From Ktedonobacterales bacterium (GTDB taxonomy: Bacteria > Chloroflexota > Ktedonobacteria > Ktedonobacterales > DATBGS01): 64,000 bases of DNA. Below, piece by piece: positions 54,512 to 64,000 of this stretch (positions are counted from its first letter, which is position 1; each line of letters opens with the position of its first letter). The notes beneath the pieces were generated by a model. That model ran no database searches. It was not told where the DNA came from and worked only from the letters and a program-made list of their open reading frames with translations. The stretch covers positions 1 through 64,000 of the forward strand of contig DATBHW010000012.1 in assembly GCA_036557285.1 (NCBI GenBank). Direction: 5' to 3'. The position numbers were made by a program, and so were the translations under genes.

Positions 54512-57500
54512 TTGAACATTCTGGATCAACGCATGGACGATCTCGCACAAACCCATCATGTGCCTCTCCTCAAGGCTGTGCTGGCAGCTCTGGAGAGCCA
54601 TAATCCCTTTGCCTGGCATAAAACCGCTGGGCGTCTGATGCTCGATGTTGACAGCATCACGCAGAAAGTGCTCGCCAAACCCTGGCGGGATACAGACCTG
54701 CTGACGCCAGCGCCCCAGGGAAGTGCGCGTAGCTCCACGCTGCACATGGCGCCTGAAGCGCGAGATGAGCTGCGCCATCTGCTCCAGCAGATTCAAGGCA
54801 GGCTGGCACAGCATTTGGAAGCACTGGCGGGCCTTCAGCACCTCTCGGTTCAAGACCTGGCGCGCCAGCGCATGGGCGCACTCCAGCAGATTCCTCCTTT
54901 TGGCGCCCTTGCCCAGGAGATTCCCGCAGAGTTGAAACGCCCCTTCAGCGCCAGCCGCAAGCGGCTCACTTTCATCCGTCCAGCAGACGGCACAACTGCA
55001 CATCAACTGCTTCCTGGCAAGGGAGCCATTCCTTCAACAGGGCACAGCCCGCTGTTGTCCTGGCACAAGCTGACCATGACGATTCAAGAGCCTGATGATG
55101 TGATCGAGCAATTGGCCGAGGCGGTACGTATCAAGCTGGAACAGGTACTCGAGCCATCCGATTACGAAGAACTGCACGAGCGCATCAAAGAGCAGGCCGC
55201 CTCGCCAACCTCCGAACTCACCAGACTCGTGCGCATCATTGCCACCGAAACAGTTGGGCAGTTAAAAAAAGAAGCCTGCCTCTCCTATCTCGGCTTCCTG
55301 GAGGAGCAGATGGACGAGCGCAACCGGATGCGGCCCGCGCTGCGCGAACTGCTGCGCCGTCTCCGGCTCCTTCAAGCGTACCTGCGCCGCGAAGATAAAG
55401 CGGACACGATTTATGAGGTGACGTATCGAGGCCAGACGATGGATCTGCGCTCTGTGTTTGCCCAGGCCACGGCGTTTTCAGATTTGCCCGTGTTCCCCCT
55501 GGTGGATGGATCGCTGGGCGAAATCACCAACCAGGGCACCCATACCTACGTGTTTGGCATGAAGCTCAAGCTGAACGGAAAGGTTGCCCGTTATGACAAC
55601 CTATCATCGTTTGACTACCACCTGGCGCTGCTGCAAAAACGTTATCAGGCTCAGCCTGAGCATCTGGTGCGCCTGGCGATTCTGTACCACCTCATCTTCT
55701 CCCGCTTCGGCGACTCCAGCTATGACCCCATCGCGGCGCTGGAGCAAGAAGTTCTTCCTGTCTTGCAGCGTGATACCGCCTCACCTGATGGGCAAGCAGC
55801 GGTTGAGCGCCTCTTTGTCAGCCTTGCCAACACCTGTCTGTCAGCGCGTGGAGAGGTGAATGCGCTGGCGGCTGCCCTGCGTGGTGTGGTGAGGCAGACC
55901 ACGCAAGCCACCAGCCAGCGTTGGGATGTCGCGCTCAGCGTCCGCGAGGGCATCCTGGAAAGCACTCCGACTACGCTTCTGGACGAAGGGCGGCTCTTGC
56001 GGCAGGTGTTTGCCTCAGATCGCAAAGAGTATCTTGCCTATCTGGAAGTGGGCGAGCCTCAAGTGACCAGCCACACGCTTCTGACACTCCGGGCGCAGAT
56101 CGCTTTTGATGCGTTGCACTGCTTTGAGGCCGAGGGTCAGGTAGAAACCTGTGACATTGGATACGATGCCGACGGGTGGACCATCCTCCCCGTCTTTCTT
56201 TCCGTCCCTTCGGAGCCACTGGGCCAAGCAGATTTGACCAGCACCCCAAATAGCCCACCACGCCCTGGATTGATGCTCCAATGCGCTGCTCAGATCAATC
56301 ATAATGGAAAGCTCCTGTCAGCCCATGCCTCCTCGACTACGGATTGGTTTGTCTATCGCTACGTCGTCACCCTGCTGGCCTATCTGGGCATCCGACTGCT
56401 GGCCTCCTTTGGACCAGACCCGACGCGGTTGTTCATCAGCCTTGCCCGGATGCACCGCATCAGCGAGCAAGAAGGCAAAGATGGCGACCCAGAAAGCTTT
56501 CTGGCTGACCTGAGCAAGGTACTTGCCCAGATGCTCGGCGTTGATTACCTGGCAAGCGCCCAGGGGCTGCTCCAATCAACGGTTGACATCTACAAGGCCG
56601 CAATGCCGCCACCTCTTTGTACGCGCCCTTGCCAAAAGTGTTCACGCTCCAGCAGGCGCCTCCCGATGTCCTGCCGCGCCTCGCGCTGGTGGTTGTTTCC
56701 AGCCGCGAAAGCGACAGCCTGCGCCAGAGCAGTCCAGACACCCAGGAGCGGCTTTCCACCGTCTATGGCGAGGTTGTCGGCATAGATCGTCTGGATGAGC
56801 GCCGTATGCGAGTGCAGCGGCGCGCTACCTTCAGCGGAACCTATCCGGCCCAGGACCTCTATACCAACCCGACCATCATCCTGGACCAGATGCATCATCT
56901 CTATCAAGCCGGGTATCGCCATATCCTGTATGTGGCGCAAGCGCCCTACAGCAGCACCCTGCACATCACCCGCAAGGGACAGGACCGCGCGGTGGCAGGC
57001 CAGGATGATGACAGGCTGTTCTTCCTCTCGCGCCAGATCATCACCCGCTGCCTTCAGGAAAAGCCAGGGCTGCACATTTATCCCGTCTTCCGCGATCAGT
57101 ACCACGCAATGAAGCTGGCCCGCGATCTGGGGGCCGATACCCTCTATATCCAGGATCTGGCCGAACTCACCCAGGTGGTGGATGACCGCAGCCAGGCGCA
57201 GCAAATGGTCGTGTTCCTCAACCTATTCAGCGGACACACCAACGTCGCCAGCCGGGATAGGGCAGATAAATACAATGGGGTCGTCTCCTACGCGACCCTG
57301 CTCAATATCTACGGCGGCGTTCTCAACGAGCGTGATCTGCGGGCAGCCTTGATCCATGATGAAGGGGGGAAGAATCCCCTGAAAAACCTGCTGGTGCTCT
57401 ACCTTACCCTCTTTCACCTCTCGCGCTACGAGAAGCAGGAGCGGGGGCCAATTGCTATCAAGCTCAATCCCTATGAAGCCATCATCGGGGATGAATCGGT

Positions 57501-57618
57501 TGGCGCCGCTGCCGCTCAGCCGCATGCCAATCGCGCCTTGCGCTTTAATTTCCTATCTTTCCTGACGATGGTGCGCAACGACATCCTGGCTGCGCCAGAG
57601 AAACGAGGCGTGCAATGA
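54512..57618 (+). CDS. Cassette protein A: ~1,035-residue unrecognised protein, interrupted by a -1 frameshift
   Basis: The first frame runs 54512-56785; the second from 56587 at the earliest (TTG 56617) to 57618. Coding character switches between 56587 and about 56617: frame 1 reads YKAAMPPPL and then nonsense, while frame 2 continues YAPLPKVFTLQQAPPDVL and LALVVVSSRESDS. Frame 2 has a stop at 56584, so the shift lies after it. No canonical slippery heptamer is there (only C CAA AAG at 56632-56638). No domain recognised. The C-terminal third alternates strands and helices (RHILYVAQAPYSSTLHITRK, LHIYPVFRDQYHAMKLA), as in a nucleotide-binding or RNase H-like fold; this is speculation. TTG start with AGGAGG. 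Its stop overlaps the next ATG (ATGA). Confidence 0.7.
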
Positions 57619-60600
57619 TTGATCCACTGGTTGAGGACGCCGGGCGTCTTTTTGAGGCCGGATTTATGCTGGGGGTCATTCGCGCGCTGGGGACGCTTCC
57701 CACGCCACCACCAGCCCTGGAGTTCTATCGGGCACAGCGAGAGAGCTATCCGCTCCCCCAGGTTATTGATCGCTTTGTCCGCCGGGTGCCATCCCTGAGC
57801 GTGCGCGATGCCGGGCGGGTACTGGCGCGCTACTACCTGTTCAAAGGCCACGTCTCTGGCCTGACTTTCTTGAATGAGTACCTGGATGCGCTGGTCGCCC
57901 AGGCAGGCGAAGGGACACGCAAACAAGAACGTGCCAGGCGCGAGCTACAGGTGCGCTATTGGCAGTGCTCGCTTCAGGGACGCAATCGGTTGGAGGAACC
58001 TTCAGAGCAAGCACGGGACGAGCAATATACCTGCTGGTTGGAGCAGCTTGGCGTACCGCTCAGCGCCATCTGGGAGGCGGAGCGGAAGGGTGGCGGCTTC
58101 CTCAATGCAGACCTGCTGCTCTGGGTGCAGCATGCTCACAACACGCGCCATGATATTCTCGTGATAGACACCTCTATCGCTACAGCCGGAAGCCGCCACC
58201 TCGCCACCGACCTGACGATTGGCGGGGAACTGCTGCGCATGCTGGAACGCGATGTCAGCTATCTCGCGGAAAAAGGAGCCTTTTCCCGGCTTGCCATCGA
58301 GACGGGCGCCGAAACTGGCCCGCTGTTCACCCGGCAGCTTGTGCCGTATTTTACGGCCTTTGCTAGCAGCGATAAGGAAAGCTCCAAGCTGATCCAGGCC
58401 GCCAGCTATGCCCAGAGCTTTTATCACTTTGTTCGTCGTTCCAACCTGCTGCAACCTGATGCGCCCCTCTCCTTTCACGTCGTTGGCTATTCTGGGCGCG
58501 GCATCAGCAGTATGACCCTGCGCCCAGATCAGGAGGAAGTGCTGGAGGCATGCGCCGAAACCTACCGCCGGGGAAAATATGACCAGCCTGAACTGGAGCA
58601 AGCAGCACGTCTGGAAGAGGCACGCAAGCGGGTCTTTCAGGTCATTCAACGCAAAACGGCGCTGCTCTTTCAGGATGGCAAGACGTTTATGCAGAAGCTG
58701 ACCGAGCAGCTTCCCGCCAGCGGCGGTATCGAACACACCGAGACTCTGGCCGGATTGTTTCAGAACACAACCATGCTCCCCCCAGAGGCAACCCTGCGCC
58801 GCTATGATCTAGCCCCGGCAGACCTGGTGCGACACAGCAAAAGCGGCGTCCCGGATACGCGCGCGGCGCATGCCGAACTGGTCTGGCGTGCCCTGGAATC
58901 TGGACGCCGCTACCTCTTCTTGACTGGCAACCCCGGCATCGGCAAGACAACGACGATTGCCACCTATCTGAAAAAACGCTGCCACGAGGAAGGTTATCTC
59001 CTGCTCTACGCCAGCCCGCGCAAAGCCGTCAATCGTGATATTCTGGAAAAATTCAAAGCAGCGCCCCAGGAGGCAAGCAATGGCGCAGAAGCATTTTACA
59101 GCGATCAGTTTCTTGGGCTGAGCGCCAACGCCGCTTTGATCCGCAGTGCCGGTGGTCGGCCCACCGTCGAGTATGTCGGCGCTTCGGCGCGCCTGCCGCT
59201 TCAACCTCGTGGGGTGCAGTTTCTTTCCAGCGAAGCGGTCGAGCGTCTGAACCAGAATCCCGCCGCTGGTGGGCAGAGGCGATTGGCGCAGGTGGCTGAG
59301 GATACGCTGCGCGACAAAGGCATGCAGGGGGCTGGAGTCGTGAAGAGTATTTGTACTGCCATTGGCGCCGCGCTAAGTACCACACAGCCCAATGCCCTTG
59401 CCGCTGCACTGGCTATTCAGGCCCTCAAACGCGACGACCAGGGCCGCGACACGCTGGAACACCTCCGCGAAATCTTTGGCAGCGCCTACAGCCGTAAGGA
59501 TAACCGCTTTCTCCCTGACCAGATGTGCGCGCTGGCAGCGACGACCCGGCATATCATTATCATGATTGATGAGATTACGGGGGATGACTCTGGCTACGAG
59601 TTCTTCCGGCGCGTGGCCGAATGGCTGAAGGAGCTGCGCCTGGAGCAGTATGGCTTTCGCACGACCATCATCGTTTCCGATGCCTCCATTACCGGCGTCG
59701 AGGTGGCGCGTGCGCATTTCGCGCTCGACCAGCGCGAGCCGGACGCCCGGAAAATCTACCTGACCACAACGCCCCACCATCAGGATCAGGCTGCGGAAGC
59801 CGTTTCGCTGCTTCCCTTCAGCTTCGAGCAGGAGGGCGCGGACGATGCCTATCTGGTCAACAGCAACTCCTATCCAGCCAGCACGCTGCATCTGCGCTAT
59901 CAGGTCTGCCTGGATACCCTGGAACTGTCGGATGAGCTGACACGCACCGAACAGCGTGAACTGCTTTCAAGCTGGAGGACGCAGCGGCGCATCGATCAGT
60001 GCATCGTTCAGGATGTTTGCTCACTCCTGGAGAAGCGGGACAACGAAGAGCAAATCATCGTGTATGTCCAGGATAAAGGGCGGCTGCAAGGCATCATTGA
60101 AGCTATCCGCAAGCAGCAAGAGCAGGTCGGGAAAACCTTTACCAGGCACGAACACTACGTCGAGATTCACGCCGATAGCTCAGAGAGCGAGCGCGCTTTT
60201 ATCGAGCGAGCGGAGGACCGTGACCGTTTCGCCATCGTGTTCATGACGTCTTCGGCCAGCCGGGGGCTGACCTTCTCCAAAGCCAGGCATATCCTGGTGG
60301 ACGTAGCGCGTTTCAATATCGAAACCAACTTGATGGAGATTATCCAGGTTCTCTATCGCGGGCGCGGTGGCTCCTACGACCTGGGAGAGAAACACGTGAC
60401 CTTCTACCTGTCTGATCGCGTGGTCATCCATCCAGATCGACGAGAGAGCTGTCTGCGCGAAGGACTGATGAGCCTGATGACCATGCTAAGCCTCCTCAAG
60501 ATGTGTGTGATGACCCGCATTGCTGGCGCGGCGCCACTGCGAGATCGAGCAGTGAGCCTGATCCCCATCGGGGGAAATCGGTCTCTGGCGCCGGGCAAGC

Positions 60601-61399
60601 CTACCACCATGATGTTGCTGCCTTCGAGCGCGCTTTGCGCCAGCAGATGCGCGGAGCGCGCAGCAATGACTGGGCGCTGACGACCTTGCACAAAGCCATC
60701 AGCCGCCTGATGGACCACGCTGAGATTCGCCTGCCTCCTGGACCTGGCTCCTACCTTTCGCTCTATCAGGGGGCCTCCGAGGGACGCCTGGAGCAGTGGA
60801 TGCTCAGCGATGAGCTGGTGGAAGAGGCGTATGTCCTGGGGAATCTGCTGATAGTGCCAGTAGATGCGGCGGTTGAGACCACCCATCATCTGGGCATCTC
60901 GCGCGAGATTGCTGCCGTTGCCAATGAGCAAACGCGTAAGGCCCTCTGTCATGTGCTCAACCACCCCCGTGAGTATTCACAAAGCGTGGTTGATGGTGCG
61001 AAAGCATTTCGTCAGTTGCTCAAGGAAGTGGAGGACGCCGAGCGTTCGCAGCGACTGGAACATCGTGGCGGGATACAGCGCGGTTATCATGTCGTTCCCC
61101 TGGCGATGTTTGTGGCAAAAGGGCCGATTGCCGCGTATTGTCAGGAACTGGCCGAGCGGGAAGAGGACGAGCAAGCCGCGCTCCTGCGCAGCGCGCTGAT
61201 TCATTACGTTCGGGACAGCTATCCCATTGATACCTTACTGCCCATTGGAAGTTGGTATAGCCGCTTCCCGTTCCTGCTCATCACCAGCCAGGACTTGCAG
61301 GCGCTGCGGGCCAAGACCTTTCAGGCCGGGCATACCCTGATGTCGCGCGAGATGAACCTGCTCACCCTGCTGCTCTCTGACGAGAAACAAAATACTTAG
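57615..61399 (+). CDS. Cassette protein B: SF2-like helicase/ATPase, ~1,260 residues, with -1 frameshift
   Basis: The first frame is 57615-60680; the reading then passes in the -1 frame to 61399. An N-terminal domain of about 410 residues is unrecognised. The motor follows: Walker A LTGNPGIGKTTTIATYLKKR (about 437), Walker B IIIMIDEITGDD (about 650), VSDASI, IIVYVQDKGRL, FMTSSASRGLTFSKARHIL and QVLYRGRGG (about 910, motif VI). The shift occurs at G GGA AAT (60572-60578), giving IPIGGKSVSGAGQAYHHDVA instead of a 34-residue nonsense tail. The last about 270 residues (ALTTLHKAISRLMDHAEIRL...) are unrecognised. Start ATG overlaps the stop of gene A. Confidence 0.75.
60572..60578 (+). promoter_or_regulatory. 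Candidate -1 frameshift slippery heptamer
   Basis: GGGAAAT in phase G-GGA-AAT of the helicase frame; a tandem slip gives GGG-AAA and enters the open downstream frame. CTGGCGC at about 60584 could pair with GCGCCAG near 60640 as a downstream stem. A plain one-base deletion in the G run remains possible. Confidence 0.45.
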
Positions 61400-61412
61400 T
61401 ACAGAGGTTCTA

Positions 61413-61441
61413 TTGACACTGTTCTGCTCGCCTCCTATACT
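61413..61441 (+). promoter_or_regulatory. Consensus promoter before the sigma-like gene
   Basis: TTGACA, exactly 17 bases, TATACT. It lies 14 bases after the end of cassette gene B and excludes the upstream starts of the next frame. Confidence 0.75.
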
Positions 61442-61544
61442 CGACATTGCCTCACAGCACAGTGGCCGCGCCTCCAGCAGCCCCGGAACCTTCCTTCGCC
61501 GCCTGGAGTGGCAGCCTGTGGCAGCAATGATGAAGGAGCGAGTC

Positions 61545-62330
61545 GTGGAAGGCGAGCAGGACGACTATTTAGCAGCACGGCAGGCTGACTTTGAGCAGCA
61601 ATTTCAGGCACTGCCAGCCGCTGGCACAGCCGCCTATTGGCAGCGCGTAGAGACATTCGGGGCAGGCGCGTTGCTCCTTGAGGTACTGAGCCGCTGCCTG
61701 CGCGAACGGTTGCGCGCGGGGGCCAGACGAGACGCAGAACGTATTTTTGATGTGATCATCCCCCACGTGCGGAAAACGATTCAATTCTGGATCAAGATAT
61801 TCGACAGCCAGACCCCTGGTGGCATCAATCAAGAAGTCGCTAAGGATTTAGCATCAGAGTGTTATCTCGCGCTCTGGAGAGAACTTGCCAATGCTCCAGA
61901 CACCTTCTTGCTCAAGGGCTTTCGCAAGAAGCTCAAGTGGATCATACATCATGTCGCGCATACATTCTTAGAACAAGAAGGAGTGTGGCAGCGCAAAGGG
62001 GTTAAAGACCCGACGCGCGTACCCATCACTGAACAGGACAGCATAGACGTCAGCCGAGATGAGGAAAGCACCACTGGGCTGCTCAGTCTGACTGATTCGC
62101 ACAGTCAGCCCTTCGGGGAGGAAGAAGTACGTATAGATATAGAGGAGTTCCTGGCACAGCTTGATCCTAAATCACGACAGATGTTCTACAGATACTTTTA
62201 TGCTGGTTATACGCAGCAGGAAATTGCCAATCTGCTTCACATCACCGACAAAACGGTGCGTGAGCATCTCAAAAGAATCGTGGACGAACTGCGCACATAT
62301 CTAGGGGGCGAGGAGGAGTCACGTGGCTAA
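61545..62330 (+). CDS. Sigma-70-family-like factor
   Basis: About 261 residues. The N-terminal half has helices like sigma region 2 (ASECYLALWRELANAPDTFL, FRKKLKWIIHHVAHTFLEQE). The C-terminus has a clear region-4 helix-turn-helix: LDPKSRQMFYRYFYAGYTQQ, EIANLLHITDKTVREHLKRI. It could be a sigma factor or a sigma-like regulator. GTG 61545 has AAGGAG at 6 bases; ATG 61527/61530 are alternatives. The promoter at 61413 lies directly upstream. It overlaps the next gene by 8 bases. Confidence 0.75.
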   Translation: MEGEQDDYLAARQADFEQQFQALPAAGTAAYWQRVETFGAGALLLEVLSRCLRERLRAGARRDAERIFDVIIPHVRKTIQFWIKIFDSQTPGGINQEVAKDLASECYLALWRELANAPDTFLLKGFRKKLKWIIHHVAHTFLEQEGVWQRKGVKDPTRVPITEQDSIDVSRDEESTTGLLSLTDSHSQPFGEEEVRIDIEEFLAQLDPKSRQMFYRYFYAGYTQQEIANLLHITDKTVREHLKRIVDELRTYLGGEEESRG

Positions 62331-62982
62331 CTCACAACACGATCAGCCTACCGGCGCAGACTACCAGCGGCAATATGAACTGGATCATATTACTGCCCAA
62401 TATGAGGACGAGTACTACGCAGGAAAATCCCCCAAAATCGCAGAGTATATACAGCGTTACCCACAGTTTGCCACAGAATTAATGGAGTTTGCCCTCTTCT
62501 TCCATACCATAGGAGCAGCAGAAGAAGAACCTGATCCTGTGCCTTCCCCTGAATTCACTGCTGCCGAGCAAAAAGTACGCGCCCTCATCCAGGCGGAATC
62601 CGCCTCCTTCCAACATGCTGCCATCGAAGGATTAGTACAGCAGGGCCTCTCAGTTGGCTATCTGCCACCAAAATTGGCTGAGGCACTGGGCATCAGCCGG
62701 GATGTCCTGGCAAAGCTGGAGGCCCACGCTGTTGCAGCCAGTACCATTCCCCGTACCTTCATTCAGCGAGCGAGCAAAATCCTCCAGGTTGTTCCCGAAG
62801 CGATCATCGGCTTTCTCCAGGGAGCTACCCCAGCACAAGCCGGGGGATTTTTCTATGCCGATCAGGCTCCTCAGCAAGAACAAGAAGCTTTTCTAGAAGC
62901 CATCCAGACAAGCCCCCGGCTCACAACTGAACAAAAACAAGAATGGGCTGAGATCGTTGCGCGAGACCTATCAGACGCCTGA
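62323..62982 (+). CDS. Partner protein of the sigma-like factor (HTH-like, unrecognised)
   Basis: 219 residues. The N-terminal YYAGKSPKIAEYIQRYPQFATELMEFAL resembles segments found in anti-sigma or kinase-associated proteins that read 'RYP...EL'. The middle part, LVQQGLSVGYLPPKLAEALG and ISRDVLAKLEAHAV, looks like a degenerate XRE helix-turn-helix. The GTG start has GAGGAGG and overlaps the sigma-like gene, so the two are translationally coupled. It may control the sigma factor; inferred from position. Confidence 0.65.
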   Translation: MANSQHDQPTGADYQRQYELDHITAQYEDEYYAGKSPKIAEYIQRYPQFATELMEFALFFHTIGAAEEEPDPVPSPEFTAAEQKVRALIQAESASFQHAAIEGLVQQGLSVGYLPPKLAEALGISRDVLAKLEAHAVAASTIPRTFIQRASKILQVVPEAIIGFLQGATPAQAGGFFYADQAPQQEQEAFLEAIQTSPRLTTEQKQEWAEIVARDLSDA

Positions 62983-62997
62983 AGTGAGAAACCTTGT

Positions 62998-64000
62998 ATG
63001 GAACGCATTGAAGTCATCTGCCAGGCTGCCATTACTCTGCGCCAGCGAGTTGGCGCATTCGAGGGCAGCATAACCCAGGGAAGAGAAACAAAAGCGCCCC
63101 AGGCCAACGGGTTAGTCGAACAACTCTGCGATCTTTTAGGTCTCGAATTAAACGAGGGCATGTATTGCCGCAGAATGCTCGGTGGGGCCTACTCGCGGTT
63201 GCAATTATGGAGATGGAACAATCCAGAGATTGGCGGTGAAATCTGGCTGCATCCCGATCTCACACCTGAAAAGCGTGCCTTTGCCATTGCTCATGAACTG
63301 GCGCACTTCACGCTGCACCGAGGAGAACAAACCACCTTTCACCCCGCCTGCACTGAGGCCGAGGTAAACGAACAAGCTGACCCCAGCAATCTTCGCCACC
63401 TCGACCACCGGGTCGAGGAATATTCACCGCGCGTCTACCGGGAACTGGAGGCCAATGCCTTCGCTGCTGAGCTGCTTGCTCCACGAGCCGAGGTACGACG
63501 CCTCTTTGCGACACGCCCAACATGTGATGCTGCCTGGCTTGCCGCGCACTTTGGTATTTCACCCCTGCTTGCGCAGCAGCGCCTGATAGATGCTGTCTTA
63601 ACAGCCGGCCTCAGGTTGGAGACCGGGCGCGCTAGCCAGCTATTACCTGCTCTAGCTGAGAACCAGCCCGCAGCGAGCAGTACCACCGACATTATCGCCC
63701 AACTCGATGAGTTTCAGCGGGAAGCCGCTCAGGCTATCGGACCGGCCCTGGTGGTAGCCGGGCCAGGGACTGGCAAAACGGCTACACTGGTCGGGCGCGT
63801 CGCGTATCTCATCGAAAAACAGCGCATCCCTCCAGAGCGCGTGCTGGCCTTGACCTTCTCGAACCGCGCGGCGGGCGAGATGCGCGAACGGCTGGAGCGC
63901 GCGCATCTGCCGGGCGAGCGTATGCCGGTAATGACCATCCATGCGTTTGCCGCTGCCCTCTTACGTGGGTACGCTTCTCGCGTGCCCTGCGGCCCTGGCG
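62998..64000 (+). CDS. ImmA/IrrE-type metallopeptidase fused to UvrD/Rep helicase (3' end outside window)
   Basis: An open frame from ATG 62998 to the window end (334 codons so far). Residues about 50-200: zinc peptidase of the ImmA/IrrE (COG2856) type, HELAH at about 99-103 in FAIAHELAHFTLH and likely third ligand Glu in RELEANAFAAELLAP (about 151). Residues about 235 onward: SF1 helicase start with Q-motif-like LDEFQREAAQAI, Walker A VAGPGTGKTATLVGRVAYLI (about 254), motif Ia ALTFSNRAAGEMRERL and motif Ib MTIHAFAAALLRGYA. It begins 15 bases after the partner gene. This fusion is unusual. Confidence 0.85.
   Translation, partial: MERIEVICQAAITLRQRVGAFEGSITQGRETKAPQANGLVEQLCDLLGLELNEGMYCRRMLGGAYSRLQLWRWNNPEIGGEIWLHPDLTPEKRAFAIAHELAHFTLHRGEQTTFHPACTEAEVNEQADPSNLRHLDHRVEEYSPRVYRELEANAFAAELLAPRAEVRRLFATRPTCDAAWLAAHFGISPLLAQQRLIDAVLTAGLRLETGRASQLLPALAENQPAASSTTDIIAQLDEFQREAAQAIGPALVVAGPGTGKTATLVGRVAYLIEKQRIPPERVLALTFSNRAAGEMRERLERAHLPGERMPVMTIHAFAAALLRGYASRVPCGPG

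Follow-up and report, generated by a model that had tools for sequence, protein, structure and literature searches.

What a bacterium gains from carrying an ImmA/IrrE-type zinc peptidase and a UvrD/Rep helicase in a single polypeptide is the question raised by a gene that begins near the end of the DNA analysed here (the window, 64,000 nucleotides, which corresponds to bases 1-64000 of a 150,614-base contig in a 5.1-Mb Chloroflexota genome). The preliminary description of this DNA had proposed that such a chain could couple DNA sensing to cleavage of a regulator, with the adjacent partner or a sigma-like protein as candidate targets. The features of the locus are as follows, with the basis of each assignment in brackets.

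61397..61412, + strand: LexA-box-like sequence TAGTACAGAGGTTCTA, adjoining the promoter of the sigma gene (read directly)
61413..61441, + strand: putative sigma-A-like promoter of the sigma gene, TTGACA-N17-TATACT (sequence reading)
61527..62330, + strand: gene for a sigma70-family (ECF-like) factor (TIGR02937, Sigma70_r4; homologues at other loci)
62323..62982, + strand: XRE-like HTH regulator of 219 aa (AF2 model, CapH match, conserved sigma neighbour)
62998..64000 within the window, continuing to contig position 67026, + strand: fusion of M78 peptidase, UvrD helicase and apparently inactive nuclease, 1342 aa (ORF reading, Pfam)
63232..63585, + strand: Peptidase_M78 (ImmA/IrrE) domain, residues 79-196 (Pfam PF06114, E 2.9e-13; Foldseek)
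63292..63306, + strand: HELAH motif with zinc ligands H99 and H103 and catalytic E100 (homologue alignment)
63442..63444, + strand: E149, corresponding to the third zinc ligand of IrrE (invariant alignment column; aligned to IrrE)
63706..64000, + strand: start of the UvrD/Rep SF1A helicase with motifs I, Ia and Ib, motifs II-VI lying past the window (Pfam)

Domains of the fusion protein

The reading frame of the fusion starts at ATG 62998, is open through the end of the window and is stop-free to contig position 67026, and the fusion of an ImmA/IrrE peptidase to a UvrD/Rep helicase, as first described, is borne out by this full frame of 1342 aa with both Pfam domains. The helicase matches UvrD-helicase (residues 237-551, E 4e-61) and UvrD_C (residues 917-992, E 1e-32) and is followed by PDDEXK_1 (residues 1074-1336, E 1.8e-9), a third domain that, like the identity of the 219-aa neighbour, lay beyond the view of the preliminary description. 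Helicase motifs I-VI are all intact, as in SF1A enzymes, and read GPGTGKT, LVDEFQD, VGDRNQSIYRWRGA, CYRS, TVHASKGLEF, and YVGLTRAQ. A stop codon between the domains or a loss of motifs III-VI had been named as grounds for abandoning the proposal; downstream extension found no such stop, and motifs III-VI are retained.

The peptidase has the HExxH motif and downstream glutamate ligand of the M78 family, and the earlier statement that the peptidase ligands and helicase motifs I, Ia, and Ib are intact holds, with H99, H103, E149, and E100 all present. In the 75 aligned fusion homologues from which residue statistics were drawn (about 75 were found among the matches listed), H99 and H103 are present in 75/75 and E100 in 74/75. 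The closest PDB match of the peptidase by sequence is CapP (8.8e-14), followed by IrrE, and the top structures returned by Foldseek are IrrE 3dte, CapP 7t5t, and PprI 8sln. A loss of HExxH in the Ktedonobacteraceae copies, suggested by partial match positions, was rejected because the alignment shows the motif intact.

The best PDB match of the C-terminal domain is mycobacterial AdnA (6ppu, E 2.5e-11), and four Fe-S-type cysteines are invariant in the alignment, as in the AdnA class. The catalytic VVDLKTG of AdnA is aligned opposite vlRrvrTG in the fusion family, which places arginine at the catalytic aspartate; across the 75 proteins, the aspartate column contains arginine in 53/75 with no acidic residue among those tallied, and arginine is also dominant in the lysine column, which makes the replacement of D-x-K mostly R-x-R. 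An active D-x-K centre was not found in the family, and an active AdnA-type nuclease was rejected on this ground; the AdnA-like domain is, judging from these residues, probably catalytically dead. Since D-x-K is gone and HExxH and the helicase are kept, the DNA-cutting centre appears to have been lost and the protein-cutting centre and the DNA motor retained. The likeness to AdnA (of AdnAB; RecBCD/AddAB functional class) consists of the UvrD-type motor, the C-terminal RecB-like domain, and the four Fe-S cysteines, whereas the fusion homologues have D-x-K replaced, carry an extra peptidase, and have no AdnB among their scanned neighbours.

Distribution, gene order, and the regulator-sigma pair

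A search with the N-terminal 247 aa of the fusion against 400 Chloroflexota genomes gave matches in 60, mostly in open frames of 1130-1420 aa, and 52 recovered loci encode homologues aligning over the fusion, a few of which end at contig edges. In a wider scan of 84,980 species genomes, fusions were also present, among the matches listed, in Pseudomonadota (alpha, beta, and gamma), Armatimonadota, Nitrospirota, Planctomycetota, Acidobacteriota, and Actinomycetota, giving at least seven phyla with Chloroflexota included. The search for the same domain order that had been suggested as a check thus returned about 50 Chloroflexota loci plus six other phyla, and this recurrence rules out an assembly artefact. 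A phage origin of the fusion was also rejected, as a phage collection matched the helicase half only. In the tree, a clade of 33 rows represents the order of the window and includes a second fusion copy from the window genome (contig C37), the window copy itself lies in a separate clade of five proteins (L003, L036, L037, L038, and L040), and the labels of other phyla are scattered, a pattern that a core gene together with a mobile gene set should produce. Fusion and regulator each occur twice in the window genome. The Ktedonobacteraceae fusion is a stand-alone core gene with coaX, plsC, and cmk-like genes as its neighbours.

The sigma gene matches TIGR02937 (E 1.5e-18, residues 128-297, model 20-165) and Sigma70_r4 (2e-11), so that regions 2 and 4 are both present, and it likely starts at ATG 61527 or 61530 rather than at the listed TTG 61413, which forms the -35 box of the putative promoter. 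The regulator gene overlaps it by 8 nt and ends 15 nt before the fusion. In its AF2 model (mean pLDDT 86.7), the regulator consists of a three-helix N-terminal domain, an XRE-type HTH (~104-166), and a C-terminal tail; a linker modelled with low confidence (~167-188) is a candidate cleavage site. Its top PDB sequence match is CapH (7t5u, E 0.003), a weak match confined to the HTH part, and its Foldseek search placed XRE structures on top, with CapH at probability 0.84 and E 2.0 and no match with E under 0.001.

The order sigma-regulator-fusion occurs at 18/52 Chloroflexota loci, and a sigma homologue lies upstream of the regulator at all Chloroflexota loci examined, both where the pair is linked to the fusion (18/18) and where it is not (20/20, directly upstream). 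In other phyla, 17/23 loci among the matches listed have a match to the regulator HMM immediately before the fusion. When the same 400 genomes were searched with a profile of this ~220-aa regulator family (strong matches having E below 1e-12), the strong matches outside the order of the window fell in exactly the 13/353 Chloroflexota genomes that have the fusion (Fisher p 6e-24), a co-occurrence that is not independent of gene order because many of these pairs are linked. More informative is the order of the window, where every genome has the regulator and 38/46 others have the fusion, even where the two are unlinked; the eight genomes of this order with no fusion match include some incomplete ones. 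As the Ktedonobacteraceae fusion is unlinked from the pair, its substrate there is suggested by co-occurrence only. The first gene of several alphaproteobacterial and nitrospirotal modules received no or only a weak sigma call from Pfam and NCBIfam, being too divergent.

Variants of the arrangement were also observed. At L049 (G065), genes for two HTH proteins separate the sigma gene from the fusion, and the second of these proteins combines a classical XRE domain with a second copy of the HTH region of the regulator. At L130, L133, and L141, the sigma and/or regulator genes are duplicated before the fusion, which suggests stacked modules. At a Thermoleophilia locus (L153:6635-8333), genes for a sigma-like protein, a regulator-like protein, and an M78 peptidase free of any helicase follow one another as in the module, possibly an unfused form of the switch considered below. 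In Chloroflexales (L108:11454-14396 and L056:3530-6460), the module is followed by a UvrD-like protein of 976-981 aa whose helicase carries a large N-terminal insertion.

Promoter elements, recA, and LexA

A motif with fixed spacing, TTTCCGYTTT-N14-GNATAG, lies upstream of sigma genes in the order of the window. In 10 complete or nearly complete genomes, the form TTTCCGYTTT-N14-GAATAG with at most one mismatch gave 41 matches vs. 5 for the reversed control, and the genes that follow it include that for the sigma factor, recA, an rpsF-like operon, and an RNase H-like gene, with the recA motif free of mismatches in two genomes. The recA gene was taken from 30 genomes, and 29 upstream regions were scored against a background of random 440-bp windows. 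The looser form TTCCG-N17-21-GAA(T/G)A was found upstream of recA in 28/29 vs. 1.7% of background windows, although these 28 cases are not independent because the genomes are related, and a stricter motif matrix placed 23/29 recA upstream regions above the 99th percentile of background. The window genome has a single match with at most one mismatch, at contig position 67082, 56 nt after the stop codon of the fusion, which reads toward a lipoprotein-like gene and an Hma cluster; its core pair has a weaker motif, TTTCCACTTTT. In G188, where the fusion lies away from the pair, a weaker motif is present ~100 nt upstream of the unlinked fusion (L040:9857). In Chloroflexales, neither sigma genes nor recA were found to have the motif upstream, and a TTTCCG promoter for the stand-alone Ktedonobacteraceae fusions was not seen by eye, sigma-A-like -10 boxes being present instead. 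The motif might be read by another sigma factor or an activator.

The LexA-like box abuts the sigma-A promoter at 61397-61441, and the sigma gene of the window may therefore be SOS-induced first. AGTACA-N-GTTC boxes like that of the window are also present upstream of recA in the window genome and in G084, and an SOS function of the LexA-box-like sequence is plausible from its letters. LexA is encoded in 45/47 genomes of the order, which rules out the fusion as a replacement for SOS control in a LexA-less order. In addition, three recA frames of 707-794 aa (G032:C33, G076:C139, and G180:C63) have the RecA domain split in frame by about 340-410 aa in an intein-like manner.

Defence neighbourhoods and a possible DNA-damage switch

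In the window genome, the module is followed by genes that match HmaA (1.8e-176), HmaB (2.8e-123), and the DUF499_antiphage ATPase (2.4e-33), i.e., the helicase, methylase, and DUF499-type ATPase that define an Hma system, and DISARM was rejected as the identity of these genes because DrmD models score well below HmaA. This Hma-type cluster (L003:8343-19503, equal to contig C12:68343-79503) consists of an HmaA-like helicase that ends in a NO VEIN domain, a DUF1156 methylase, and a DUF499 ATPase, with a small transposase-like gene inside it (L003:12095-12757). Outside Chloroflexota, immune operons lie beside the module at 11/23 loci among the matches listed; in the same listed matches, the module is followed by BilD or BilC at eight loci, by E1-E2/ThiF proteins at two, and by a CBASS cyclase with a phospholipase effector at one. 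The N-terminal part of the fusion also matches 83 plasmid records at 80% coverage or more, the best of which is annotated merely as 'UvrD-helicase domain-containing protein'. A ThiF protein is encoded in 6/7 plasmid regions inspected, with a multiubiquitin protein (Multi_ubiq E 2.6e-58) right after the module in four of those six, and the inspected module plasmids are mostly conjugative. On the other side of the module, two adjacent long genes of the window (54512-57618 and 57615-61399) each seem to be split by a frameshift, with frame overlaps near 56617-56785 and 60503-60680; in the second, AAA and helicase C-terminal domains are accompanied by weak matches to DpdF and PDC-S73, and the pair (54512-61399) is possibly another defence set or a product of assembly errors.

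The sequence comparisons directly support the domains, the loss of D-x-K from the nuclease, the conserved gene order, the co-occurrence, and the common motif. The reading of the module that we hold to be fairly probable is a three-component DNA-damage switch in which the DNA-activated fusion cleaves the regulator, the sigma factor is freed, and TTTCCG promoters fire. The fusion would be the sensor-protease, its SF1A helicase and dead, Fe-S-containing AdnA-like domain loading on damaged or foreign DNA; helicase and Fe-S remnant would bind and track along ends or single strands, and this engagement would switch on the N-terminal M78 peptidase, which would then cut the small XRE-like protein encoded just upstream. 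Activation by DNA is suggested by analogy with CapP and PprI, which are ssDNA-activated and cleave HTH repressors (PMC13373217, PMC10904395). While uncut, the XRE-like protein would act as an anti-sigma factor, a role to which the gene order points, or as a repressor of the promoter of the sigma gene. The freed sigma factor would transcribe from TTTCCG(Y)TTT-N14-GNATAG promoters, as the shared motif suggests, with its own operon, recA (in the order of the window), and adjacent defence operons as targets; in the window genome, the target would be the segment leading to the Hma cluster.

The proposal that one chain couples DNA engagement to the cutting of a regulator encoded next to it is well supported by context, with cleavage as its presumed step. 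With its XRE-like HTH, the neighbour belongs to the class of proteins that ImmA/IrrE peptidases take as substrates. In PDB sequence searches, it matches CapH best, and the peptidase matches best the protease that acts on CapH, CapP. Regulator and fusion also occur together where they are not linked, and nuclease residues are lost where peptidase residues are kept. Of the two targets first suggested, the regulator is the likely substrate, whereas the sigma factor is rather the likely output.

A plain relief of repression as in CapH/CapP, where the HTH protein represses the operon promoter and is cut by the peptidase, the sigma factor is an output only, and the helicase serves repair rather than sensing, appears unlikely. 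The nearest PDB matches, the adjoining immune operons (as with CapHP), and the ordinary sigma-A promoter and LexA-like box of the window sigma gene all agree with it, but the sigma-regulator pair stays coupled away from the fusion (20/20), sigma genes and recA have in common a non-sigma-A motif with fixed spacing, and the helicase remains fused across phyla although the nuclease is lost. Still less probable is a DNA repair helicase whose M78 domain acts on a repair protein or on its own chain, with neighbours that reflect co-regulation only; its complete helicase motifs, AdnA-like C-terminus, and position as a stand-alone core gene in Ktedonobacteraceae would suit such a role, but the nuclease centre is gone in the homologues, co-occurrence with the XRE-like protein is strict, and the set moves jointly on conjugative plasmids beside immune operons. 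A Gabija-like or abortive effector, with a helicase that senses phage DNA and a peptidase toxin held by an HTH antitoxin, is very improbable, since the PADLOC GajB and RTasHel matches to the helicase domain and the defence-gene neighbourhoods that favour it are set against GajB matches that span only the generic UvrD core (for which reason, with GajA absent among scanned neighbours, membership in Gabija (GajAB) was rejected), a sigma gene in the operon and a recA motif that point to transcriptional control, and a core copy retained in most genomes of one order.

Among known systems, the proposed damage switch is close to CapH and CapP, an ssDNA-activated protease and HTH repressor that control CBASS and related operons, in its CapP-like M78 peptidase, its adjacent XRE-like HTH partner, and the immune operons (including CBASS) alongside. 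It differs in that its peptidase shares one chain with a full SF1A helicase and a dead nuclease, that the set constantly includes a sigma70-family gene as its third member, and that its core copy has a promoter motif in common with recA; the module is not filed under CapHP because its protease is not stand-alone and its CapH match is weak. IrrE/PprI-DdrO of Deinococcus is similar in its M78 fold, the proposed cleavage of an XRE regulator, and a putative link to DNA damage and recA, but the fusion has a helicase-nuclease remnant in place of a visible GAF-like ssDNA-binding domain, its partner appears paired with a sigma factor, and LexA is present too. CapW/BrxR (a WYL repressor) and CapK with CapS (HTH-STAS-GHKL kinase with STAS repressor) are likewise DNA-damage-activated regulators beside CBASS, Bil, and Bub-type operons, but neither has a protease, helicase, or sigma factor. 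No description of the M78-UvrD fusion or of the three-gene module was found in the open-access literature searched, and the best reading is that of a distinct variant, not found described, that works like CapH/CapP and IrrE/DdrO.

We give about even chances to the broader conclusion that, with this module, CapW, CapHP, and CapKS are joined by another family of controllers that DNA damage activates, one whose protease is driven by a helicase and destroys an anti-sigma factor of the XRE type. This family would be mobile and, in several phyla, connected to immunity of the ubiquitin-like, CBASS, and Hma kinds, and in Ktedonobacterales and their kin it would form a core pathway parallel to LexA that reaches recA via a dedicated sigma factor. 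To our knowledge, there is no earlier case of a DNA motor built into a protease that triggers a damage response. If the scheme is true, a nuclease domain would have been retired and a peptidase kept in such a motor-protease, and a sigma factor would be tied to Bil, multiubiquitin, CBASS, and Hma operons. The whole scheme can be tested with three genes and one promoter, and, if true, it would give Chloroflexota a LexA-independent route to recA.
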